Source: Bradyrhizobium sp. CSA207
GTDB lineage: Bacteria; Pseudomonadota; Alphaproteobacteria; Rhizobiales; Xanthobacteraceae
NCBI RefSeq assembly: GCF_029051685.1
Contig: NZ_JAACFT010000004.1
Location: 124,001 to 188,000, forward strand
Length of the DNA stretch: 64,000 nt
Reading direction: 5' to 3'
A program made the position numbers and the translations under genes. The notes beneath the pieces were generated by a model. The model was not told where the DNA came from, did no database searches, and saw nothing but the letters and a program-made list of their open reading frames with translations. This document shows, in pieces, positions 15,046 to 25,062 of the stretch. Position 1 is the first letter of the stretch, and every line of letters starts with the position of its first letter.

Positions 15046-16104
15046 GTGTCGCAGAATCAAGCATCCAGTTCGGCCGAGGCCAAGCCGACCACCGCCGCAA
15101 GCCGCATTGTTGCGCTGATTCCCGGCATTCTCCTCTGCATCGTTGTGGCCGGCGTTTCGGCCCTTTTGGAGCGGGCGGAGCTGGGTGTGTTCGAGCACCC
15201 CTATGTCGAGGCGCTGGTGATGGCCATCCTGCTCGGCATGGCGCTGCGCAGCTTCTGGAAGCCCGCGCCGCGCTGGCGGGCCGGCATCGCCTTCAGCGCC
15301 AAGCAGCTGCTCGAAGTCGCAGTGATGCTGCTAGGGGCCTCCATCAGCTTTGCAGCAATTGCGGCCTCGGGCGTTGCGCTGCTGGCATCGATCGCGGCTG
15401 TGGTCGTGGTCGCGCTCAGCGTCAGCTTTGGCTTGAGCCGCATGCTCGGCCTGTCGACACGACTGTCGATCCTGATCGCCTGCGGCAACTCCATCTGCGG
15501 CAATTCGGCTATCGCGGCCGTGGCGCCGATCATCGGCGCCAACAACGACGAGATCGCATCCTCGATCTCTTTCACTGCGATCCTCGGCGTGATGATGGTG
15601 CTGGGCCTGCCGCTGCTGATTCCGCTGCTGCAACTGTCCGCCACGCAATACGGCATCCTCGCCGGCCTCACCGTCTACGCCGTGCCGCAGGTGCTGGCGG
15701 CAACGGTGCCGGCGGGCCTCGTCTCGACGCAGATCGGCACGCTGGTCAAGCTGATGCGCGTGTTGATGCTGGGGCCGGTCGTCGTCGGCCTGTCGCTGGT
15801 CGCCTCGCGTTGGCAGACCGGCGCCAAGAAGACCAATGTCGGATTTTTCCGCTTAGTCCCGTGGTTCATCCTCGGCTTCCTCGCACTCGCGACGTTGCGC
15901 TCGCTGGAAATCGTGCCCGGCACCGTGGTGGGCCCGGTGACGAAGATCACGAGCTTCCTCACGGTGGTGTCGATGGCGGCACTCGGCCTCGGCGTCGATG
16001 TCCGCGTGCTCGCCAATGTCGGCGGCCGCGTCACAGCCGCCGTGACACTGTCGCTGATGCTGCTGCTCGGCATCAGCATCGCGCTGGTGCATTGGTTCAA
16101 GTGA
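15046..16104 (+). CDS. YeiH-family putative sulfate/anion exporter
   Basis: An inner-membrane protein of 352 residues with about ten hydrophobic segments and the conserved YeiH core GNSICGNSAIAAVAPIIGA near residue 150. The family (UPF0324, conserved hypothetical 698) includes TauZ-like proteins thought to export sulfate or sulfite, and paralogues of unknown substrate. The GTG at 15046 is preceded by CTCCGGGAGAG and no ATG is better placed. The gene is separated from the next operon by repeat DNA and points towards it convergently. A role in exporting sulfite or sulfate from the neighbouring 16-25 kb system is an attractive but unproven idea. Confidence 0.83.
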   Translation: MSQNQASSSAEAKPTTAASRIVALIPGILLCIVVAGVSALLERAELGVFEHPYVEALVMAILLGMALRSFWKPAPRWRAGIAFSAKQLLEVAVMLLGASISFAAIAASGVALLASIAAVVVVALSVSFGLSRMLGLSTRLSILIACGNSICGNSAIAAVAPIIGANNDEIASSISFTAILGVMMVLGLPLLIPLLQLSATQYGILAGLTVYAVPQVLAATVPAGLVSTQIGTLVKLMRVLMLGPVVVGLSLVASRWQTGAKKTNVGFFRLVPWFILGFLALATLRSLEIVPGTVVGPVTKITSFLTVVSMAALGLGVDVRVLANVGGRVTAAVTLSLMLLLGISIALVHWFK

Positions 16105-16311: not shown

Positions 16312-17184
16312 CTAAATCACATCCGCCAGCGAGTGACCGTGCAGCTCGATGTTCAGCCCCTGCATGCCGAGATCGGTGATCTCGCCGCCCATCGCCTTGA
16401 TGCTTTCCTCACGGATCAGCGACATCAACCCGCGGCGCAGCGCCAGGAACTCCGATGACATCATCATCGATTGCTGCCGCGGGCGCTCCAGCGGAATCGG
16501 AATCTCGGCCTTGATCGAGCCGGGACGCGCCGTCATGCAGTAGACCCGGTCGGACAGGAAGATCGCCTCGTCGATGTCGTGGGTGACGAACAGCACCGAG
16601 ATCTTCAGCCGCTGCCACATGTTGGTGAGGATCTGCTGCATGATGACGCGGGTCTGTGCGTCGAGCGCGCCGAAGGGCTCGTCTAACAGCAGCACCTTCG
16701 GCCCCGTCGCGAGTGCGCGCACGATGCCGACGCGCTGCTTCATGCCGCCGGAGAGCTTTTCCGGATAGTGCTTCTCGAAGGCGTCCAAGCCGGCAAGCCC
16801 GAGCAGGGTGCGGGCCGCGCGCTCGCGCTGCGAACGCGCCATGCCGCGCATCTTCAGGCCGAACTCGACATTCTCCCGCACCGTCTTCCAGGGAAACAGC
16901 GAATATTGCTGGAACACCATGCCGCGCTCGGCGCTGGGGCCGTTGACCCTTTCGCCGTCGACCGTGACCACTCCGGTGGTCGGCTTGAGGAAACCTGCGA
17001 CCGCATTGAGCAGCGTCGACTTTCCGCACCCTGAGGGGCCGACGATCGAGACGAACTCACCCGGGTTGACATGAATCTGCGTGTCGGTGACCGCCTCAAC
17101 CGGTCCCTCGATACTGTCATAGCTGAGCGAGAAATTCTTGACCTCGATATGGCCCTGCGGTGCTTTGGTCAGGATCTCGTTCAT
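16312..17184 (-). CDS. NitT/TauT-type ABC transporter ATP-binding protein
   Basis: A 290-residue cytoplasmic ATPase with Walker A GPSGCGKST, the Q-loop in FQQYSLFPWKTV, the signature LSGGMKQR, Walker B VLLLDEPFGALD and the H-loop THDIDEA. The LFPWKTV sequence after the Q-loop is typical of the nitrate / sulfonate / taurine / bicarbonate importer group (SsuB, TauB, NrtD). It is the third gene of a binding-protein, permease, ATPase operon and overlaps the permease gene by 4 bp. Only one ATPase and one permease are encoded, so the importer is a homodimer of each. About 25-30 extra residues at the C-terminus have no clear role. Confidence 0.9.
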   Translation of the reverse strand: MNEILTKAPQGHIEVKNFSLSYDSIEGPVEAVTDTQIHVNPGEFVSIVGPSGCGKSTLLNAVAGFLKPTTGVVTVDGERVNGPSAERGMVFQQYSLFPWKTVRENVEFGLKMRGMARSQRERAARTLLGLAGLDAFEKHYPEKLSGGMKQRVGIVRALATGPKVLLLDEPFGALDAQTRVIMQQILTNMWQRLKISVLFVTHDIDEAIFLSDRVYCMTARPGSIKAEIPIPLERPRQQSMMMSSEFLALRRGLMSLIREESIKAMGGEITDLGMQGLNIELHGHSLADVI

Positions 17185-18050
17185 TTCAGCCTCCACGGCA
17201 TCACCAACTGCCCCGCGCCTCTGATGAGCATGCTCGATCCGAGGCCGAGCACGCCGATCGCGATCATGCCGAGCGCGATGTCGGCATATTGGACCAGCGA
17301 ATAGGCCTCCCAGGTGAAATACCCGATGCCGTACTGGCCCGAGATCATTTCGGCCGCGATCAGCGACACCCAGGCGACGCCCATGCCGACAGTGAGGCCG
17401 GTGAAGATGTGCGGCAGCGAGGCCGGAAAGTACACTTCGCGAAAGATCGAGCGTTCGCGCGCGCCCAGACATTGCGCCGCGCGCACCAGCACGGGATCGA
17501 CCAGCGACATGCCGTGCAGCGTGTTGACCAGGATCGGGAAGAATGAGCCGAGAAAGGTGATGTAGACGATGCTCTGCTCGTTGGTCGGCCACAGCATGAT
17601 CGCCATCGGCACCCAGGCGATCGCCGGGATCGGCCGCAGCACTTCCGCCACCGGGAAGACGATCTCATGCACCAGCTTGAAGCGGCCCATGATCAGGCCG
17701 AGCGGCACGCCGACGATGGCGGCGAGCGAAAAGCCGATGAAGATGCGCCGGCAGCTCAGCACGATGTGCATCAGGAATTTCGGATCGTGGATCGCCTTGG
17801 TGAAGCTTGCATAGACCGCGAGCGGCGAGGGCACGTTGGTGAAGCGCACGAAGAACACGACGCGATAGGTCGTGAGCAGGTGCCAGACCAGCAGGAAGGC
17901 GAGCAGCGAGAGGATGCCGATCGCGATTGCGCGCAGTCCCGCCCGATTGAGCCGATACCAGCGCAGCGCGACAGTGCCGAAGGAAGGCGCCGCCGCAGGA
18001 GCCGCGGCGGGCGCGGGGCTCGCCTCGCCGATTGCGGTTGTTGCCGGCAT
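17181..18050 (-). CDS. NitT/TauT-type ABC transporter permease
   Basis: An inner-membrane permease of 289 residues with six predicted membrane helices. It has an Ala/Pro-rich cytoplasmic leader (SPAPAAAPAAAPS) and the EAA loop AAQCLGARERSIFREVYFPASLPHIF of the BPD-transporter family. It is placed in the SsuC/TauC/NrtB group by its helices and partners. The ATG at 18050 is 35 bp after the binding-protein stop; the frame is open further upstream but there it only shadows that gene. Substrate range must be set by the unusual binding protein upstream. Confidence 0.88.
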   Translation of the reverse strand: MPATTAIGEASPAPAAAPAAAPSFGTVALRWYRLNRAGLRAIAIGILSLLAFLLVWHLLTTYRVVFFVRFTNVPSPLAVYASFTKAIHDPKFLMHIVLSCRRIFIGFSLAAIVGVPLGLIMGRFKLVHEIVFPVAEVLRPIPAIAWVPMAIMLWPTNEQSIVYITFLGSFFPILVNTLHGMSLVDPVLVRAAQCLGARERSIFREVYFPASLPHIFTGLTVGMGVAWVSLIAAEMISGQYGIGYFTWEAYSLVQYADIALGMIAIGVLGLGSSMLIRGAGQLVMPWRLK

Positions 18051-18085
18051 GCTGTCCTCGGAATGTCTGAGGAGGGCGGGACTGC

Positions 18086-19507
18086 TCACGTCTTGCCTCC
18101 GCTGACTGCCGCCTTCACCGCTTCGTCGAAGCCGAGCACCTTGCCGCTGATCTTGGCCGCATAGGCTTCGGCATCCTTCTTGAGCAGGAAGGGCGCGACA
18201 TCGCCATTCCCGACCGCGAAGAAGGCCTGGTCGGCGAACAGCTTGATGCCGCGGGTCGTATCGAAGACGTAGGCGACGTTGATCTTCTTGCCCTTGGCCT
18301 TGAAGTCGGCATAGGCCCCTAACGTGCAACTGGCAGACGAGAAAGCGAGGATGCCAGCCTCGTCCACCCAGACTTCGCCGGCCTTGCGCGGATCGGAGAT
18401 CGGCTTCTTGCAGAAGCCATCCTCGCCTGAGATTTCGTAGTTCTTGGTGCTGCCGAGCTGCGCGTCATAGTCGAGCTTCATCTCGGCATAGGCCTTGCGG
18501 ATGTAGCTGTCGTCGACCCATTTTTTGGGATCGAACTCCTTCATGCGGCCGAGGTTTTGCAACACCTTGACGTCGGCGGTGGCCGCATCGATCAGCGCCG
18601 GCTTGACCGTGGGATCGGTTGTCATGTTGCCGCTGGGGCCGAGGAAGATGTAGACGACTTCCTTGTTGATGCCCGTCCATTCCTGGATCTTTTCCGCAGC
18701 GAGCTTGGGATCGTCGCGCAGCCATTGATTGGCGGCGGCGACCGCCTTCAGATAAGCGACGACGACTTCCGGATATTTTTCGGCGAAGTCGGTGCGGACG
18801 ACGATGCCGTGGAAGGTCGGCAGATTGGTCTCGACGCCGTCGAAGATCTTTCGCGCAAAGCCACGGAACGGCAGCAACTCGGCGAAGGGGACGAAGTCGG
18901 CATGCGCGTCGATCTTCTTTTCCTGCAGATTGGTCGAGCCGACTTCCGGGCTCTGGCTGACGAGCTGGAAGAAGTCGGACGCGTAGCCGCGGTCCTGCAT
19001 CGCCTTCAGCACCATGCCGTGCGCGGCGGAGCCGAAGGGCACGCTGACGAGCTTGCCCTTGAGATCGGCGAGATCGTAGTACGGCGACTCCTTGTGAACG
19101 ACGATGCCGTTGCCGGAGCCCGACATGCTGTAGGCCGCGATGCCGATCAGGCGGCTCTTGCTCTCGGGGTTGCTGTCGAAGGTGAAGCCGTTCACGATCA
19201 GCGGGTAGTCGCCCATCATGCCGATCTGCAGCTTGTTCGCCATCATCGCGTTGGTGACGGGCGGACCGGAGGTGAAATTCTGCCACTCCAGCTCGAACTT
19301 GATGTTGGCGTATTTGCCGTCCTTCGGCAGGTATTTTTCGAGCAGATGCAGCTGCCGGATGACGACGCCGGCGGTCACCGTGTTGGTCGTGGTATCCTGC
19401 GTTCCGATGCCGAGCGTCACCGTTTCCGCCGAAGCCGGCTGCGCGAGGAGTAGCGCCAGCGACGTCACCGACATCGCGATCGAGAGCGTGGGAAGATGGC
19501 GGACCAT
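18086..19507 (-). CDS. ABC transporter substrate-binding protein with NosL-like C-terminal extension
   Basis: A periplasmic binding protein of about 473 residues, roughly 130-150 longer than usual for the NitT/TauT (NrtA/SsuA) class. A signal peptide ends near AQPASA. The binding domain follows to about residue 330, with motifs such as KLQIGMMGDYPLIVNG and DLKGKLVSVPFGSAAHG. The last 110 residues (from GEDGFCKKP on) resemble the NosL copper-chaperone fold: WVDEAGILAFSSASC, then AYVFDTTRG, then FFAVGNGDVAPFLLKKDAEAY and GKVLGFDEA. Two cysteines lie in this part. I start it at 19507 because GAGGATGAG sits at the right distance; ATGs at 19513 and 19519 are alternatives. The domain match is by eye and needs a profile search. 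Confidence 0.82.
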   Translation of the reverse strand: MVRHLPTLSIAMSVTSLALLLAQPASAETVTLGIGTQDTTTNTVTAGVVIRQLHLLEKYLPKDGKYANIKFELEWQNFTSGPPVTNAMMANKLQIGMMGDYPLIVNGFTFDSNPESKSRLIGIAAYSMSGSGNGIVVHKESPYYDLADLKGKLVSVPFGSAAHGMVLKAMQDRGYASDFFQLVSQSPEVGSTNLQEKKIDAHADFVPFAELLPFRGFARKIFDGVETNLPTFHGIVVRTDFAEKYPEVVVAYLKAVAAANQWLRDDPKLAAEKIQEWTGINKEVVYIFLGPSGNMTTDPTVKPALIDAATADVKVLQNLGRMKEFDPKKWVDDSYIRKAYAEMKLDYDAQLGSTKNYEISGEDGFCKKPISDPRKAGEVWVDEAGILAFSSASCTLGAYADFKAKGKKINVAYVFDTTRGIKLFADQAFFAVGNGDVAPFLLKKDAEAYAAKISGKVLGFDEAVKAAVSGGKT

Positions 19508-19593
19508 TCTCATCCTCATTCGGTTGGATGTGCTGTGGTTGCCATGATTGGGTGAGGGCGTGGACAGGGCAAATCCGGAATGACCACCGCAGT

Positions 19594-19602
19594 CGATTAG
19601 TT
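19594..19602 (-). promoter_or_regulatory. Shared motif AACTAATCG upstream of the binding-protein gene
   Basis: Read on the minus strand the site is CCGGCAACTAATCGACTGCGG, about 87 bp before the binding-protein start. The same 9-mer, AACTAAT(T/C)G, occurs at 21030, 21104 and 21991, each upstream of another gene of the putative regulon. It may be an operator or a promoter element. Confidence 0.5.
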
Positions 19603-19686
19603 GCCGGGAAAAGCTGATTGCATACTCCTTGGGCAGTCCTGCACTATAAAGCCGCTTGCCTGGGCACCGACCCCGGTCGCCGGCCT

Positions 19687-20460
19687 TTAGTCAGAGGCTT
19701 GTCCGCGCATCTCTTCCAGCACGTCGGGCCGGCAGACCACGATCTGGGAGCGCTTGGTCAGCACGATTCCCTTCTCCTGCATCCGCTTCAAACTGATCGT
19801 GACCCATTGCCTGGTGGCGCCGACCATGTGGGCGATGTCGGCATGGGTGAAGGCTGCCGCGATCACCCGGCCGTCGGCATCCTCGACACCGTAGAGCTCG
19901 ACCAGATGCAGCAGCAGATGCGCCAGCCGCTGTGTGATCGAACGCGTTCCCAGCATCTGCGCCAGCGCCGAATAGCACTTGCCCTTGAAGGTCAGACCCT
20001 CGATCAGGCCGATTGCCAGGTTCGGGATCTCCATGGCGAGCGTGCGCAGTTCTTTTCCGGGCAGGTGCACGACGCTGCAATTGCTGGATGCAACGCCGGA
20101 CCATTGATGCACGGTGCCTTCGAACACTTCGGGCCCGCCGACGAAATTGCCGACATGCCAATAGGCCAGCGTGATCTCGCGCCCAAGCGGCGAGGTATAG
20201 AACACGCGGATGCGGCCGCTCTCGATCAGCCAGATACCGTCATGCTTGCCGCCCTGGCTGAACAGCGTCTGGCCGCGGTTGAGCACTTTGCGGCGGCCCT
20301 GCTTCAGCACCAGCTCCCGCTCGCGCTGGCTGAGCTTGTCCATCAGCGGCGGCGGACCGCCAATCCATTGCTGGTTCTCGGTGAGCAGCAGCGAGGAGCT
20401 TCCCGCAGGCCGGACCGTTGCGGGAACCGTCCCGCGAACCACATTGGCCGCCTGCAACAT
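19687..20460 (-). CDS. Crp/Fnr-family transcriptional regulator
   Basis: A 257-residue regulator with an N-terminal cyclic-nucleotide-binding-like beta roll (residues about 45-155; LFSQGGKHDGIWLIESGRIRV) and a C-terminal winged helix (FTHADIAHMVGATRQWVTISLKRMQEKGI). It lacks the N-terminal cysteine cluster of oxygen-sensing Fnr, so the signal is something else: a nucleotide, a metabolite or a haem ligand. It lies just upstream of the ABC importer operon on the same strand. That makes it the prime candidate to bind the AACTAATYG sites nearby. The first 40 residues are not conserved-looking, so the true start could be MDKLSQRERE. Confidence 0.87.
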   Translation of the reverse strand: MLQAANVVRGTVPATVRPAGSSSLLLTENQQWIGGPPPLMDKLSQRERELVLKQGRRKVLNRGQTLFSQGGKHDGIWLIESGRIRVFYTSPLGREITLAYWHVGNFVGGPEVFEGTVHQWSGVASSNCSVVHLPGKELRTLAMEIPNLAIGLIEGLTFKGKCYSALAQMLGTRSITQRLAHLLLHLVELYGVEDADGRVIAAAFTHADIAHMVGATRQWVTISLKRMQEKGIVLTKRSQIVVCRPDVLEEMRGQASD

Positions 20461-20540
20461 CGTCTGCCTCCGGAACGTTCAATTCGTCCTAAAGCGGAGC
20501 AATGTCCGTGCCAGATTCACTCCGCTGTCGTCGCACGGCT

Positions 20541-20629
20541 TGACCGGGCGACCCAGTATTCCAGAGACAGCAATGAGTTACGGAGAGGCCGCGGCGTACT
20601 GGATTCCCGCCTTCGCGGGAATGACAGCG
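20541..20629. repeat. Dispersed repeat, TACTGGAT-CCCGCCTTCGCGGG family
   Basis: GACCCAGTATTCC near the left is answered by GCGTACTGGATTCCC on the right, and the end holds the hairpin CCCGCCTTCGCGGG followed by AATGAC. A second copy with the same layout is at 47291-47402. It lies between the Crp-family gene and the DUF971 gene. Confidence 0.7.
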
Positions 20630-20674
20630 AGTTTGTGGCGCCCGTGCTCGCGCCAATGCAAAGTCTGCGTCGGC

Positions 20675-20980
20675 CTAACCCCCCGCCAAACTCAGCAAAT
20701 ACGCCTTGGGGTAAATCCCCCGACTGTGCCCGTCCGAAAACGAGATGTTCAGCCCGTAGCCGAGATCGCCGATGTCGGTGATGGCGATGCCCGGAAACGC
20801 TTCAGGGAAGCGGCCGTCGAAGCGGGCGCGGGTGCAGTGGGCGCATTTGCATGAGAGGCGGAGCTGCTCGGCAGGCAGGCTGAGTTGATCGTCCTGCGTG
20901 GTGCGGACGCGGAGCGTGGCAAGATCGGCGCTCGCCTCGTAGTCGGCCACGGTCGGTGCCACCAATGCGGTCATGGTCAT
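20675..20980 (-). CDS. DUF971 (GBBH-like N-terminal domain) protein
   Basis: A 101-residue protein with the DUF971 signature: an LRVRTTQDDQLSLPAEQLRLSC strand-turn core, the C-x-C-x2-C set in SCKCAHC, and the closing FSDGHSRGIYPKAYL motif. The domain is also found at the N-terminus of gamma-butyrobetaine hydroxylase, where its cysteines bind zinc. Stand-alone copies occur next to Fe-S and Mrp-type genes and may assist iron-sulfur or metal handling. The start at 20980 is preceded by AGAGG; an ATG two codons later is possible. A copy of the shared AACTAATTG motif lies 50 bp upstream, which ties it to the flavoprotein and transporter genes. Confidence 0.82.
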   Translation of the reverse strand: MTMTALVAPTVADYEASADLATLRVRTTQDDQLSLPAEQLRLSCKCAHCTRARFDGRFPEAFPGIAITDIGDLGYGLNISFSDGHSRGIYPKAYLLSLAGG

Positions 20981-21029
20981 GACGAACCTCTGACTCTTCT
21001 CTACGCCGCCGCAGGCGAGCGCGAATAGC

Positions 21030-21038
21030 AACTAATTG
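21030..21038. promoter_or_regulatory. Shared motif AACTAATTG between DUF971 and ferredoxin reductase genes
   Basis: The wider site GCAACTAATTGC is an interrupted palindrome (GCAA, four bases, TTGC). It lies 50 bp from the DUF971 start and 156 bp from the reductase start, in a divergent promoter region. Confidence 0.5.
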
Positions 21039-21103
21039 CCAGAGCGCACGTGCAAAGGCGGAGCGCGGCTGCCTCCTCTTCGGTCATCGCCCGCAAAATG
21101 TGA

Positions 21104-21112
21104 AACTAATCG
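21104..21112 (+). promoter_or_regulatory. Shared motif AACTAATCG upstream of ferredoxin reductase gene
   Basis: The sequence TGAAACTAATCGACCGG lies 82 bp before the reductase start, much like the copy upstream of the binding-protein gene (AACTAATCGACTGCGG). Its centre is 74 bp from the neighbouring copy, about seven helical turns. Confidence 0.5.
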
Positions 21113-21193
21113 ACCGGCAGTTTCAGTTCGGCGTTGCCCGAGTCCTCCGTCTCCGAAATCCTTGCGCCCATCGCAGGTAAGGAGAGACGACGG

Positions 21194-21967
21194 ATGAGCG
21201 CTTTTCAGAAGGAAACGGTTCTGTCGGTCAGGCACTGGACCGACTCGCTGTTCAGCTTCACCGCGACGCGCGATCCCGGCTTCCGCTTCCAGAACGGCCA
21301 GTTCGCCATGATCGGGCTGGAGGTCGAGGGCAAACCCTTGATGCGGGCCTACAGCATGGCGAGCGCCAATCATGAGGAAGAGCTCGAGTTCTTCTCGATC
21401 AAGGTTGAGGACGGCCCGCTGACCTCGCGCCTCCAGAAGATCAGGGAAGGCGACATCATCCTGGTCGGCCGCAAGGCGACGGGCACGCTGATCACAGGCA
21501 ATCTCATTCCCGGCAAGCGTCTCTTGTTGCTGTCGACCGGCACCGGGCTCGCGCCGTTCGCCAGCCTGATCAAGGACCCCGACGTGTACGAGAACTACGA
21601 GACCATCGTGCTCGCCCATGGCTGCCGCCAGATCTCCGAGCTCGCCTATGGCGAGCACCTCGTCGACGGCCTGCGCAATCACGAATTCTTCGGACCGCTG
21701 ATCCGCGACAAGCTGGTCTATTATCCCACCGTCACCCGAGAGCCGTTCAGGAATCGCGGCCGCATCACCGACCTGATCACCTCCAACCAGATGTTCGACG
21801 ATATCGCGCAGTCCGGCCTCGATATCGCGACGGATCGCATCATGCTGTGCGGCAGCCCCGCAATGCTGGAGGAGCTGCACGCCATGTTCTCCGCGCGCGG
21901 CTTTGCGGAGGGGAACCACAGCCAGCCCGGCCATTTCGTCATCGAGAAGGCTTTCGTCGAGCGGTGA
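21194..21967 (+). CDS. Ferredoxin/flavodoxin-NADP(+) reductase
   Basis: A bacterial FPR-type reductase of 257 residues that moves electrons between NADPH and ferredoxin with FAD. Visible motifs are the FAD-binding RAYSMAS (R-x-Y-S), the GPLTSRLQKIREGD loop, the NADP-binding STGTGLAPFASLI and MLCGSPAMLEELHAM. It ends FVER, close to the C-terminal stretch seen in subclass I bacterial FPRs. GGAGAGACGACGG fixes the ATG at 21194. It is the first of four plus-strand genes leading to a flavoprotein, a ferredoxin and a HEAT protein. It most likely supplies reducing power from NADPH to that ferredoxin. Confidence 0.93.
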   Translation: MSAFQKETVLSVRHWTDSLFSFTATRDPGFRFQNGQFAMIGLEVEGKPLMRAYSMASANHEEELEFFSIKVEDGPLTSRLQKIREGDIILVGRKATGTLITGNLIPGKRLLLLSTGTGLAPFASLIKDPDVYENYETIVLAHGCRQISELAYGEHLVDGLRNHEFFGPLIRDKLVYYPTVTREPFRNRGRITDLITSNQMFDDIAQSGLDIATDRIMLCGSPAMLEELHAMFSARGFAEGNHSQPGHFVIEKAFVER

Positions 21968-21990
21968 CGCACAAATCGCTCTGCGGCGAC

Positions 21991-21999
21991 AACTAATTG
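21991..21999 (+). promoter_or_regulatory. Shared motif AACTAATTG upstream of AprA-like flavoprotein gene
   Basis: The site GACAACTAATTGCTATCGCCGG lies 73 bp before the flavoprotein start, in the 104-bp gap after the reductase gene. Its presence inside the gene row suggests a second promoter here. Confidence 0.5.
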
Positions 22000-22071
22000 C
22001 TATCGCCGGAAAGCCCCCTGAACAAATCTGATGCAAAGGCGCCGGACCTGCCGGCGAACCAGGAGCAAGCG

Positions 22072-23814
22072 ATGGCACTAGATCAGATCGTCGACGGACT
22101 TTCGGAAGTTTCCTGCGACGTGCTGGTGATCGGCGGCGGCACGGCCGGCCCGATGGCGGCACTCAAGGCGAAGCTGAAGAACCCGAAGGCCAATGTCGTC
22201 CTGCTCGAAAAGGCCAACGTCAAGCGCTCCGGCGCGATCTCGATGGGCATGGATGGCTTGAACAACGCCGTTATCCCCGGCTATGCGACGCCGGAGCAGT
22301 ACACCAAGGAAATCACCATCGCCAATGACGGCATCGTCGACCAGAAGGCGGTCTATAAATATGCGCAGAACTGCTTTGGCATCATCGAAGAGCTCGACAG
22401 TTTCGGCATTCGATTCCTGAAGAACGAGAACGGCGACTATGCCGTCAAGAAGGTGCACCACATCGGCACCTACGTCCTGCCGATGCCGAATGGCGAGACC
22501 GTGAAGAAGGCGCTGTACCGCCAGCTGCGCCGCGCGCGCATCCTGATCTCCAACCGTTACATGGCGACGCGCCTGCTCAAATCCGCCGACGGCCGCATCG
22601 CCGGCGCGATCAGCGTCAACACCCGCACCGCCGAGATCTTGGTGATCAAGGCCAAGGCGGTGATCCTGTGCATGGGCGCTGCGGGCCGACTGGGTTTGCC
22701 GACCTCAGGCTACATGTTCGGCACCTACGAGAACGCGGCCAATTCTGGCGATGGCTATGCCATGGCCTATCACGCCGGCGCCGCGCTCGCGAACCTCGAA
22801 TGCTACCAGATCAATCCGCTGATCAAGGACTATAACGGCCCGGCCTGCGCCTATGTCGCCGGCCCCTTCGGCGCCTTTACCGCCAACAACGAGGGATCGC
22901 GCTTCATCGAATGCGACTATTGGTCGGGCCAGATGATGCTGGAGTTCTACAACGAGCTCTTGTCCGGCAAGGGTCCGGTGTTCCTCCAGCTCAAGCATCT
23001 CCACCCCGACACCATTTCCGAGATCGAATCCACGCTGCACAAGGTGGAGCGGCCGACGCGCGGCCTGTTCCAGCAGGGGCGCGGGGTCGACTACCGCAGC
23101 GAATCGATCGAGATGCACATCTCCGAGATCGGCTTCTGCTCCGGCCACAGCGCCTCCGGCGTGTTCGTCGACGACAACGCGCGCACCACCGTGCCCGGCC
23201 TCTATGCGGCCGGCGACATGGCGAGCGTGCCGCACAATTACATGCTGGGTGCCTTCACCAACGGCTCGGTTGCCGGCGTTGACGCGATGGAGTTCGCCGA
23301 AAATCACGATTTCGCCGAGTTCGACGCCGCCGACATTGCCACGGAGCGCGACCGCGTGCTGGCGCCGACCAGGCGCGAGGACGGTATTCCGCCGAACCAG
23401 ATCGAATACAAGACGCGGCGTCTGGTGAACGACTATCTCCAGCCGCCGAAGGTGACGCGCAAATACGAGCTCGGCATGCGCCGCCTTGCCGAGGCGCGCG
23501 AGGACATGCAGGAGCACATGATCGCGCGCAACGCGCACGAGCTGCTTCGTGCGCTCGAAGTGCAGTCGATCATGGATTGCGCCGACATGGCCGTGCATGC
23601 CTCGCTGTATCGCGAGGAAAGCCGCTGGGGCCTCTATCACTGGCGCACCGATTTTCCCGAGAAGGACAACGAGAACTGGTTCTGCCACACCCTGCTATCC
23701 AAGCAGGACGGCAAGATGACCAGCGAAAAGCGTGCGGTTGAGCCCTATGTCGTGCCGATCGCGGATGACGAGAAGGACCTCTACGACAAGCAGCGCATCC
23801 GCGCCACCGCCTGA
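22072..23814 (+). CDS. FAD-dependent oxidoreductase, fumarate reductase / adenylylsulfate reductase alpha-like
   Basis: A 580-residue flavoprotein of the succinate dehydrogenase / fumarate reductase / AprA superfamily. GGGTAGPMAAL at residues 21-31 binds the FAD ADP part. The following EKANVKRSGAISMGMDGLNN resembles the AprA flavin loop more than SdhA. Further on are the HISEIGFCSGHSASGVFVDD active-site region and the VPGLYAAGDMASVPHNYMLG stretch that closes the FAD site. The C-terminal helical domain ends with a YHWRTDFPEKD-type motif seen in this superfamily. The small ferredoxin gene follows, as aprB follows aprA, but there is no signal peptide and no membrane anchor gene. A true APS reductase is unlikely, since sulfate reduction or oxidation partners are absent; the substrate is unknown. 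Confidence 0.85.
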   Translation: MALDQIVDGLSEVSCDVLVIGGGTAGPMAALKAKLKNPKANVVLLEKANVKRSGAISMGMDGLNNAVIPGYATPEQYTKEITIANDGIVDQKAVYKYAQNCFGIIEELDSFGIRFLKNENGDYAVKKVHHIGTYVLPMPNGETVKKALYRQLRRARILISNRYMATRLLKSADGRIAGAISVNTRTAEILVIKAKAVILCMGAAGRLGLPTSGYMFGTYENAANSGDGYAMAYHAGAALANLECYQINPLIKDYNGPACAYVAGPFGAFTANNEGSRFIECDYWSGQMMLEFYNELLSGKGPVFLQLKHLHPDTISEIESTLHKVERPTRGLFQQGRGVDYRSESIEMHISEIGFCSGHSASGVFVDDNARTTVPGLYAAGDMASVPHNYMLGAFTNGSVAGVDAMEFAENHDFAEFDAADIATERDRVLAPTRREDGIPPNQIEYKTRRLVNDYLQPPKVTRKYELGMRRLAEAREDMQEHMIARNAHELLRALEVQSIMDCADMAVHASLYREESRWGLYHWRTDFPEKDNENWFCHTLLSKQDGKMTSEKRAVEPYVVPIADDEKDLYDKQRIRATA

Positions 23815-23848
23815 TCCATCGCCAAGCGCAAGCAACAGGAGAAATACG

Positions 23849-24082
23849 ATGCCTCTCGCTTCCTATCAGACATCGGTTCCGGTGGTCGTCGACGACGCCA
23901 AATGCATCGCCGACAAGGGCTGTACCGTGTGTGTCGACGTCTGTCCGCTGGACGTGCTGCGCATCAGCGACATGACCGGCAAGGCCTACATGGCCTATGA
24001 CGAATGCTGGTACTGCATGCCCTGCGAGGCGGACTGCCCGACCGGCGCCGTCACCGTCAACATTCCTTATCTGTTGAGGTAA
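23849..24082 (+). CDS. 2[4Fe-4S] ferredoxin (AprB-like N-terminal domain)
   Basis: A 77-residue ferredoxin with eight cluster cysteines in two sets: C-x5-C-x2-C-x3-CP near residues 19-32 and C-x2-C-x2-C-x3-CP near residues 54-64 (DECWYCMPCEADCP). The longer spacing in the first set and the tryptophan/tyrosine in the second recall AprB, whose longer C-terminal tail is missing here. It lies 34 bp after the flavoprotein gene with its own CAGGAG ribosome site. It is 2 bp before the HEAT gene. It is the obvious electron carrier between the NADPH-ferredoxin reductase and the flavoprotein. Confidence 0.93.
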   Translation: MPLASYQTSVPVVVDDAKCIADKGCTVCVDVCPLDVLRISDMTGKAYMAYDECWYCMPCEADCPTGAVTVNIPYLLR

Positions 24083-24084
24083 TC

Positions 24085-25062
24085 ATGTCGAGCCCGTTCG
24101 AATCCTACGACGACCTCGAAGATGCCGACGAGCGGCTCCAGGCTGCCGATCCGGGGGAGCGCCGTGTCGCCATCATCGCGCTCGGCCATTCCGGCGATCC
24201 GGCAGCTGTCGGCCATCTCGCCAAGATGGTGGTCGATCCCGATGCCGGCGTGCGCCAGCAGGTCGCGATGGCACTTGGCGAGTTCGACGGGCCGGAGGCG
24301 GCGAGTGCGCTGGTCAAGCTGCTGGTCGACCCCGAGAGGATCGTGGCGTCCGCCGCGGCCGACAGCATGGCCGAGTTCAAGGATCCCTCCTGCGCCGACA
24401 TCATCCTGCCGCTGGTCAAGCACGCCCACGCGTTCGTTCGCATGGGCGCGCTACGTGCGCTGAAAGAGCTGCGCTGCAAGGATACGCTGAAGCCGGCGTT
24501 GGAAGCGCTGCAGGATTCCGATGCCGCCGTGCGCGTGCAGGCGATCGGCGTGATCGGCTTCCTCAAGCTGGAAGAATCGATTCCGGCGCTGACCGCGCTG
24601 ATCAACGATCCCGACGCCCATGTGCGCCGCGCCGCCGTCAGCGCGCTGGCGTTCTCGCAGATGAAGCCTGCGGCGGAAACAATCACGCGCGCGTTGAAGG
24701 ACACCGACTGGATGGTCCGCGAGATGGCGGCGGAGACTCTGGGCCTCAACATCAACGGTTCGCTCGCGGCCGACCAGCTCGTCGGCTGTCTTGCCGATGA
24801 GTTCTGGCAGGTGCGGCTGAAGGTGATCCGCAGCCTCGGGCGCATGAAGATCGAGCGCGCAGTGCGGCCGATCGGCAATTGCGTCAACCACGACCAGGCC
24901 AATTTGCGGAAAGAGGCGGCCGCCGCGCTCGGCGAGATCGCCCATCCCGACGGCGAGGCGTTCCTGGCCGTGATCGCTGACGATCCCGATCCGGATGTCC
25001 GCAAGAACGCACGCTGGGCGCTCCAGCAGATCGCGGCCCAAAAGGCACGGGCAGGGACGTAG
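24085..25062 (+). CDS. HEAT-repeat protein
   Basis: A 325-residue protein built almost wholly of about nine HEAT/PBS-lyase-like repeats of roughly 31 residues. Each has the DxDxxVRxxAxxALG pattern (DPDAGVRQQVAMALGEF, DSDAAVRVQAIGVIGFL, DPDAHVRRAAVSALAF, DPDPDVRKNARWALQQI and so on). Such proteins are scaffolds or partner-binding chaperones rather than enzymes. The gene starts 2 bp after the ferredoxin stop, so translation is coupled. It probably binds the ferredoxin or flavoprotein, perhaps as an assembly or cofactor-insertion factor. No catalytic motif is visible. Confidence 0.9.
   Translation: MSSPFESYDDLEDADERLQAADPGERRVAIIALGHSGDPAAVGHLAKMVVDPDAGVRQQVAMALGEFDGPEAASALVKLLVDPERIVASAAADSMAEFKDPSCADIILPLVKHAHAFVRMGALRALKELRCKDTLKPALEALQDSDAAVRVQAIGVIGFLKLEESIPALTALINDPDAHVRRAAVSALAFSQMKPAAETITRALKDTDWMVREMAAETLGLNINGSLAADQLVGCLADEFWQVRLKVIRSLGRMKIERAVRPIGNCVNHDQANLRKEAAAALGEIAHPDGEAFLAVIADDPDPDVRKNARWALQQIAAQKARAGT

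Follow-up and report, generated by a model that had tools for sequence, protein, structure and literature searches.

What two gene rows that face away from each other in the genome of Bradyrhizobium sp. CSA207 do for the cell is the question raised by a stretch of 64,000 nucleotides (contig NZ_JAACFT010000004.1, positions 124,001 to 188,000 of the forward strand), which is called the window here and in whose own numbering all coordinates are given. One row encodes an ATP-binding cassette (ABC) importer, a Crp/Fnr-family regulator and a DUF971 protein, and the other a ferredoxin-NADP reductase of the Fpr type, a flavoprotein resembling AprA of adenosine 5′-phosphosulfate (APS) reductase, a small ferredoxin and a HEAT-repeat protein. 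A first, sequence-only reading had proposed that both rows serve a single pathway, which takes up a small anion and reduces or oxidizes it. The computational analysis shows a real and widespread system that is apparently undescribed, and we put at roughly one in two the probability that it imports a sulfonate or, less probably, another organosulfur oxyanion and releases sulfite from it reductively, driven by ferredoxin, for nutrition.

The gene set is far beyond chance and recurs in many genera; at least 572 stretches in one genome collection encode a relative of the flavoprotein (E≤1e-3). All nine genes, with their strands and order, were confirmed by family searches of the window proteins, the start codons being chosen by eye. 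That the two rows form one system is well supported. Among 249 genomes sampled across the phylum, where the flavoprotein was counted above its family cut-off and the binding protein at E≤1e-60, the flavoprotein family occurs in 14 and the binding protein with its NosL-like extension in 14, and these are the identical 14 genomes, spanning seven genera (hypergeometric chance 3.6e-23, with shared ancestry ignored). The flavoprotein scores in this sample are bimodal, at least 1058.9 bits or at most 218.4 bits. The sequence-only reading had named co-occurrence as a check; for the flavoprotein and the binding protein it was recovered, and together with an operator-like motif common to both rows it bears out the claim of a single joint system.

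Physical linkage agrees with this. Across 106 loci with the flavoprotein, the window included, the ferredoxin is co-located in 105, the HEAT protein in 103, DUF971 in 96, the dedicated binding protein in 74, and Fpr and the Crp regulator in 60 each. Because 19 of these loci (L001, L013-L030) are short ones from a genome search that cannot reveal a transporter, the binding protein is more fairly counted over the 87 longer loci (74 of 87), some of which still end at contig edges. An unlinked binding protein was sought in eight records or genomes that have no intact linked one, with L006 left out and, for the plasmid case, the plasmid alone covered; the protein was found on another contig in three, was interrupted in one, and was lacking in three genomes and one plasmid. 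An alternative is that the rows are separate units which became neighbours by chance. They are indeed split between contigs in Xanthobacter (L088, L164), in a Beijerinckiaceae metagenome-assembled genome (L091, L166) and in Paraburkholderia tropica (L108, L165), the enzyme stands alone in three genomes, and in G110, one of the 14, the enzyme and binding-protein parts are ~1.9-2.9 Mb apart on a single 4.8 Mb contig. In Xanthobacter, the row with the transporter (L164) consists of genes for Crp, the binding protein, permease, ATPase, FdxA, Fpr, YeiH and a LysR protein, and the one on the separate contig (L088) of DUF971, flavoprotein, ferredoxin and HEAT genes. However, both parts are found in the same 14 of 249 genomes, an unlinked one among them, and both rows carry the common promoter motif; chance neighbourhood is largely refuted and is very improbable.

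The motif, AACTAATYG, was first spotted by eye in intergenic DNA, and the pattern is therefore post hoc; the test is given by other loci. There are four matches in the 64 kb, all upstream of system genes: AACTAATCG at 19594..19602 on the minus strand, ~75 bp upstream of the binding-protein gene; AACTAATTG at 21030..21038 on the plus strand, in the gap from which the DUF971 and Fpr genes diverge; AACTAATCG at 21104..21112 (plus), ~82 bp upstream of Fpr; and AACTAATTG at 21991..21999 (plus), ~73 bp upstream of the flavoprotein gene. Only 0.11 matches were expected, and none of 100 shuffles reached four. For other loci, a match was taken to be at a system gene when it fell at most 250 bp upstream of, or at most 450 bp into, a stop-to-stop frame. 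By this measure, 87/87 matches are at system genes in 23 additional, closely related Bradyrhizobium loci, 11/12 in five Rhodopseudomonas-type loci, and 26/27 in 56 other loci, where ~6 matches were expected from base composition (binomial p 5.6e-12, assuming that system-gene zones make up one third of a locus). In 23 loci from named Bradyrhizobium (L042-L063, L068), the flavoprotein shares 92-98% identity with that of the window. A copy of the motif immediately precedes the unlinked binding-protein gene of Xanthobacter as well, and the cyanobacterial loci L008 and L123 have one and three matches, respectively.

Enzyme promoters mostly have the form GCAACTAATTGC, a dyad GCAA-N4-TTGC, and transporter promoters mostly GCAACTAATCGAC. 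The spacing of the dyad matches that of Fnr-type sites, which makes the cluster's own Crp/Fnr-family protein (19687..20460, minus strand; HTH_Crp_2 2.2e-15, cNMP_binding 3e-15) the likely reader of these sites. The motif is present in 20/32 loci with a Crp gene, in 1/22 with only a GntR gene and in 4/7 of the remainder (61 loci; Fisher p 1.2e-5). Only near-exact sites cluster here: GCAACTAATTGC with up to three mismatches shows no window-wide excess (27 found, 32.4 expected). Exact SAACTAATYGM sites number seven in the own genome, three of them in the cluster, against one for the reversed-pattern control; three of the four sites outside the cluster were inspected for a wider regulon, and these had no link to the system. 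Counts in six other genomes are mixed, the control count equalling the pattern count in G005 and G060, and in G067 one site lies downstream of a different yeiH gene, past its 3′ end. A known RNA leader at the repeated motif was considered and rejected, all three Rfam matches (E 0.2-0.73) being far under the gathering scores. Two stretches suspected to be interspersed repeats were each single-copy within the window.

The catalytic candidate is the AprA-like flavin adenine dinucleotide (FAD) protein of the PRK08275 family (22072..23814, plus strand; FAD_binding_2 8.8e-32), which is well conserved (mean column identity 75% over 37 rows). It passes NF006131, the model for PRK08275, at 1059.7 bits (cut-off 587), and stays below cut-off both for AprA (TIGR02061, 159.9 bits; cut-off 641.75) and for FrdA/SdhA (TIGR01812, 166.6 bits; cut-off 567.3). 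NCBIfam names NF006131 fumarate reductase / succinate dehydrogenase, a name contradicted by the active-site columns: 42/42 family members lack the SdhA catalytic residues, which we take to be R286, H354, R399 and H242, as well as the flavin-bearing His. These columns, together with the tree, rule that identity out. Among solved structures, the best match by sequence is the alpha subunit of the 3′-phosphoadenosine 5′-phosphosulfate (PAPS) reductase of Methanothermococcus (8a8o, 3.3e-61), followed by AprA (~5e-39) and SdhA (2.7e-25). In a tree of 26 rows, which leaves out 8a8o and a TcuA-like row from Cupriavidus metallidurans CH34 (a very long branch that had fallen inside the family) and for which the program warned of long branches, the flavoprotein family is one clade (86/93, in 82% of bootstrap trees). 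It is joined with five APS reductase rows at 100/100; the three further FAD proteins included from the own genome, of which two have SdhA motifs, fall outside this group. By sequence, then, the family is sister to the APS reductases, and the tree that the sequence-only reading had called for places it outside any family of known substrate; the earlier view of an AprA-like and not FrdA-like protein holds by structure matches, tree and active-site columns alike.

True APS reductase membership was likewise rejected, on the TIGR02061 score and on two replacements. The positions that we take to be W234 and R265 of AprA are Tyr and Leu in 42/42 family members, and are Trp and Arg in 5/5 APS reductases (four AprA and the annotated APS reductase alpha of Ilyobacter). 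K267 of AprA is retained in the family, and so are the H398 and N74 positions in 42/42 members. The pair aligned with Trp206 and Tyr207 of the methanogen PAPS reductase, which bind FAD according to the accessible part of PMC10322725, is Tyr-Glu here. The flavoprotein model has a predicted local distance difference test score (pLDDT) of only 75.9, with weak stretches, and for this reason the active-site claims rest on alignment; comparison of the model by VIA-align (Z 43.8 to 8a8o, Z 39.4 to FrdA) shows the fold only. True AprA co-exists with the flavoprotein in 3/4 genomes tested, so that the flavoprotein is not a stand-in for AprA there.

The partners of the flavoprotein suggest a direction of electron flow. 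The AprB-like ferredoxin with two [4Fe-4S] clusters (23849..24082, plus strand; Fer4_7 6.5e-9) is below cut-off for the aprB model (31.9 bits; cut-off 135.65) and has a Trp in its second cluster motif, CW-x-C, which is found in 105/105 family ferredoxins, 103 by pattern and two (L008, L011) by reading. In AprB, the Trp at this place relays electrons to FAD. Fpr (21194..21967, plus strand; NF008178 9.8e-39) scores 133.1 bits, below the cut-off of 390. Relatives have other candidate donors, namely FdxA in 27/67 loci (near 2 of the 23 Bradyrhizobium loci) and, in 6/67 loci including Acidithiobacillus caldus, a large NfnAB-like protein with GltD-like and DHOD-reductase-like parts, whose best model, NF005128, is not reached. 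Fpr-, FdxA- and NfnAB-like proteins normally pass electrons from reduced nicotinamide adenine dinucleotide phosphate (NADPH) to ferredoxin, and because of this the enzyme probably works in the reductive direction; the electron supply from Fpr to ferredoxin, as first proposed, finds support in all three kinds of partner. Running it oxidatively, with sulfite or an organosulfur intermediate as substrate and electrons passed on to ferredoxin and NADP, is improbable. Dissimilatory APS reductase is described as reversible in the accessible part of PMC10322725, and YeiH suggests that sulfite is present. Against this, none of the 42 members retains the Arg of AprA R265 or the Trp of W234, the partners are donors from NADPH to ferredoxin, and the reverse reaction of the closest solved relative, itself a reductase, could not be measured according to the same part of that source.

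The HEAT-repeat protein (24085..25062, plus strand; HEAT_2 3.2e-72) appears to be a partner of the enzyme itself, as first proposed: in Tsukamurella, flavoprotein and HEAT protein are a single protein of 893 amino acids, which passes NF010374 at 1568.1 bits (cut-off 1196). The DUF971 protein (GBBH-like_N; 20675..20980, minus strand; PF06155 2.8e-12) may be a maturation factor for the Fe-S clusters. Fe-S clusters are handled by Mrp proteins, which in many cases bear DUF971, and the proposed role follows from two cyanobacterial loci in which an Mrp/NBP35 protein comes after the HEAT gene in the place of DUF971, a DUF971 match being absent there.

As to what is imported, the binding protein of the transporter is closest to those for sulfonates. 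The ATPase, of the NitT/TauT type (16312..17184, minus strand; PF00005, ABC_tran, 3.9e-34), and the permease (17181..18050, minus strand; PF00528, BPD_transp_1, 9.6e-25) have as nearest NCBIfam models SaoA, TauB and NtrCD for the former and SaoP and NtrB for the latter, all below cut-off. The periplasmic binding protein (18086..19519, minus strand; NMT1 9.3e-9; model pLDDT 92) has an SsuA/TauA fold and a NosL-like C-terminal domain. TauA and SsuA come first for its N-terminal part by sequence, Foldseek and VIA-align, although both families are missed at their cut-offs (SsuA 120.8 of 163.5 bits, TauA 68.6 of 304.25 bits). The NosL extension (about residues 380-470) noted in the sequence-only reading is borne out for the family more than for the window protein, which scores 20.1 bits, below the PF05573 cut-off of 24, whereas 34/44 alignment members match at E≤10, the best at 1e-6; its two Cys are retained in only 40/74 binding proteins. 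We consider it unlikely that the substrate is an organonitrogen compound or some small anion without sulfur and that the YeiH gene nearby is incidental. Nitrate and bicarbonate binders are the next by structure (VIA-align Z 26-28), behind SsuA (Z 31.3) and TauA (Z 30.4), and allophanate-hydrolase-like amidases lie near 8/67 loci of cyanobacteria and proteobacteria (L008, L065, L076, L077, L082, L084, L086, L117), as well as near L053 and L057. Yet sulfonate binders are first by both sequence and fold, and YeiH is enriched, accompanying the transporter in Xanthobacter and lying within the cluster in L063 and L066.

The link to sulfite comes from this YeiH-family membrane protein, a likely sulfite exporter, whose gene (15046..16104, plus strand; PF03601 1.6e-68) lies just outside the span first considered; it passes PF03601 (231.3 bits; cut-off 24.5) and does not reach TIGR00698 (149.4 bits; cut-off 232.6). 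YeiH is the main sulfite-resistance factor in Salmonella and is regarded as a sulfite exporter in Hyphomicrobium, in the accessible parts of PMC12880088 and PMC12423496, respectively. It occurs in 7/67 loci against ~0.4 expected, two of the seven (the window and L123) being query sources and the background being 19 copies in ten genomes of ~60.6 Mb, five of them chosen for having YeiH. Closer to the window, it occurs in 19/30 Bradyrhizobium/Rhodopseudomonas-type loci; 17 of these are Bradyrhizobium with the window's type in the same place (17/23 other Bradyrhizobium loci), and L063 and L066 have a different YeiH inside the cluster, between DUF971 and Fpr. In Xanthobacter, YeiH lies 3.6 kb after the unlinked binding protein, the order being Crp, binding protein, permease, ATPase, FdxA, Fpr and YeiH. 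The Nostoc locus contains sulfonate binding proteins and genes for methionine and cysteine synthesis, and the Pseudanabaena locus YeiH and TauE. Sulfite is therefore the likely product. TauE/TSUP-type genes were found at 7/67 loci, a count given little weight since three of the seven supplied queries. The substrate, first put broadly as an organosulfur, organonitrogen or other oxyanion, can thus be narrowed, from YeiH and the SsuA/TauA-like binding protein, to probably an organosulfur compound that yields sulfite.

Taken together, the system may work as follows. The ABC importer with its SsuA/TauA-like binding protein would take up a small oxyanion containing organic sulfur, a sulfonate being the likeliest case. 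In the cytosol, the ferredoxin would be reduced by NADPH via Fpr, or via FdxA or an NfnAB-like protein in relatives, and the AprB-like ferredoxin would hand the electrons to the AprA-like flavoprotein at its FAD. This flavoprotein, complexed with the HEAT protein, would cleave the substrate to give sulfite, which would enter sulfur assimilation, any surplus being exported by YeiH. DUF971 would aid the loading of Fe-S clusters, and the Crp/Fnr regulator would switch transporter and enzyme genes jointly via the AACTAATYG sites. The substrate, the sulfite product, the reductive direction and the roles of DUF971 and the regulator are those that we infer from the computed results. As for the chemistry, we suggest tentatively an oxygen-independent desulfonation, in which an APS-reductase-type FAD/Fe-S enzyme with a HEAT partner and a remodelled site frees sulfite reductively from an organosulfonate or from another sulfo group with an S-O, S-N or S-S bond. 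Sulfite might, with the same reserve, be drawn from the imported compound and not from nucleotide-activated sulfate.

Several observations weigh against reductive sulfite release from an imported sulfonate or against the unity of the system that it presupposes. First, N5 attack meets a poor leaving group in the carbon of an unactivated sulfonate, and AprA chemistry is not simply transferable because the W234 and R265 positions are Tyr and Leu throughout the family. Second, the sulfite link is uneven: YeiH is linked in just 7/67 loci, any YeiH, TauE or TSUP gene in 12/67 (four of them query sources), and YeiH is missing from 11/30 Bradyrhizobium/Rhodopseudomonas-type loci, some of which are cut short. 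Third, the 27 matches to the motif in the 56 further loci fall in 21 loci, most having none; the motif is missing in 12/32 loci with a Crp gene and was not found in L088 (the Xanthobacter enzyme half), L091, L165 or L166, nor in either half in G110. Fourth, conservation of the enzyme genes without the transporter, named at the outset as an outcome that would speak against a joint pathway, is seen in part: the binding protein is linked in 74/87 loci, and the dedicated binding protein is absent from three Burkholderia-type genomes that have the enzyme (L107, L111, L121) and from a Nostoc plasmid, the plasmid only being searched, which carries just ordinary sulfonate binders. Finally, a marine subgroup (L070, L071, L074, L076, L077, L081, L082, L085, L095, L103) has copper-type genes near the permease and ATPase, in clusters of 10, 7, 9 and 9 loci whose members in L074 are SCO1/SenC, PCuAC, a cytochrome c and an unannotated Cys-Cys membrane protein. 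This row suggests a copper link, which the sulfonate proposal leaves unexplained; beyond 10 kb, nothing consistent was found among the downstream genes of this subgroup in four stretches.

Sulfite could also be released from a sulfonate by an oxygenase encoded elsewhere, the flavoprotein and ferredoxin being its electron-transfer pair, in the way proposed for AsfAB and the Ssu monooxygenase in the use of aromatic sulfonates. Asf, in the description given in the accessible part of PMC4267179, combines a reductase/ferredoxin pair and an importer for sulfonates, and luciferase-like (LLM-type) monooxygenases lie near 6/67 loci and TauD near 4/67, each count including a query-source locus. However, the loci examined show no oxygenase that is conserved alongside the module, and the flavoprotein's high column identity, with its fusion or linkage to the HEAT protein, suggests an enzyme that itself bears the substrate. 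The family was also not found at E≤1e-30 in the CH34 megaplasmid, the replicon on which asfRAB is placed in the accessible part of PMC2864759. An electron-transfer role of this kind seems rather unlikely, slightly less so than a substrate other than organosulfur, and the reductive release of sulfite by the flavoprotein itself is preferred.

The module is found in a range of genetic settings. It is complete, with DUF971 and a UTRA-domain regulator, on an Acinetobacter baumannii plasmid from a cerebrospinal-fluid isolate (L009), and it occurs on rhizobial plasmids (L006, L124, L126 and others), in Sinorhizobium chiapasense at most 8 kb from a gene annotated NodA. Anti-phage Qat genes adjoin it on Methylobacterium pMRAD01 (L007), and on a Tsukamurella plasmid (L011) it is adjoined by a nucleotidyltransferase/ThiF/Mov34/SAVED set resembling an island of the cyclic oligonucleotide-based antiphage signaling system (CBASS). 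The dedicated binding-protein gene is broken on pTcM1 of Acidithiobacillus caldus (L122, L127/L130; 17.8-20.4 kb in the record), where an ISL3-family transposase gene (ISAtc1) separates the two pieces that match it. Three Bradyrhizobium relatives (L027, L028, L030) have flavoprotein copies 75-80% identical to that of the window, each with one in-frame stop codon, and in one genome the flavoprotein is in two pieces on two contigs; this second Bradyrhizobium lineage of the module may be partly decaying.

No description of the system, no experiment on it and no named pathway with this gene set, which the sequence-only reading also could not name, was found in the open-licence literature searched, which was aimed at the system or its near relatives; the system is not mentioned in the accessible parts of PMC9694294, PMC8557817, PMC7661421, PMC6971185 and PMC3826726. 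If the proposed function is true, rhizobia, methylotrophs, Burkholderiales, cyanobacteria and actinobacteria have in common an undescribed route to organic sulfur, and the APS-reductase fold acts on a new kind of substrate. Since the gene set is clear, the partners are fixed and a promoter motif is present, the system is directly testable.

Among known systems, Asf of Pseudomonas putida S-313, which serves aromatic sulfonates, has a binding protein, an ABC importer, a reductase and a ferredoxin and is controlled by sulfur, as given in the accessible part of PMC4267179. That part mentions neither a HEAT nor a DUF971 partner, both of which are present in the window system. The search of the CH34 megaplasmid (Cupriavidus metallidurans, NC_007974) was made in place of one with an AsfA sequence. 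On that replicon, a row of LysR, TcuA-like and TcuB-like genes (L012:10295-16226) is just a guess at the asfRAB placed there by the accessible part of PMC2864759; if it is asfRAB, AsfAB would be TcuAB-type proteins. Fumarate reductase and SdhA have the FAD_binding_2 fold in common with the flavoprotein, but the window family lacks the SdhA catalytic residues and forms a separate branch. The Sao ABC transporter provides the best-scoring NCBIfam models for the window ATPase and permease (NF040729, NF040733), which are not reached (262.1 of 360 and 148.2 of 295 bits). SsuABC and TauABC have the binding-protein fold and the ATPase and permease kinship in common with the window importer, whose binding protein differs in falling below the SsuA and TauA cut-offs and in adding a NosL-like domain. 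The nearest relatives of the enzyme, AprAB and the PAPS reductase 8a8o, likewise consist of an FAD alpha subunit and a partner with two [4Fe-4S] clusters and a CW motif; unlike AprAB, the window system includes an importer, a HEAT protein and DUF971, has W234 and R265 replaced and stays under the aprA cut-off.

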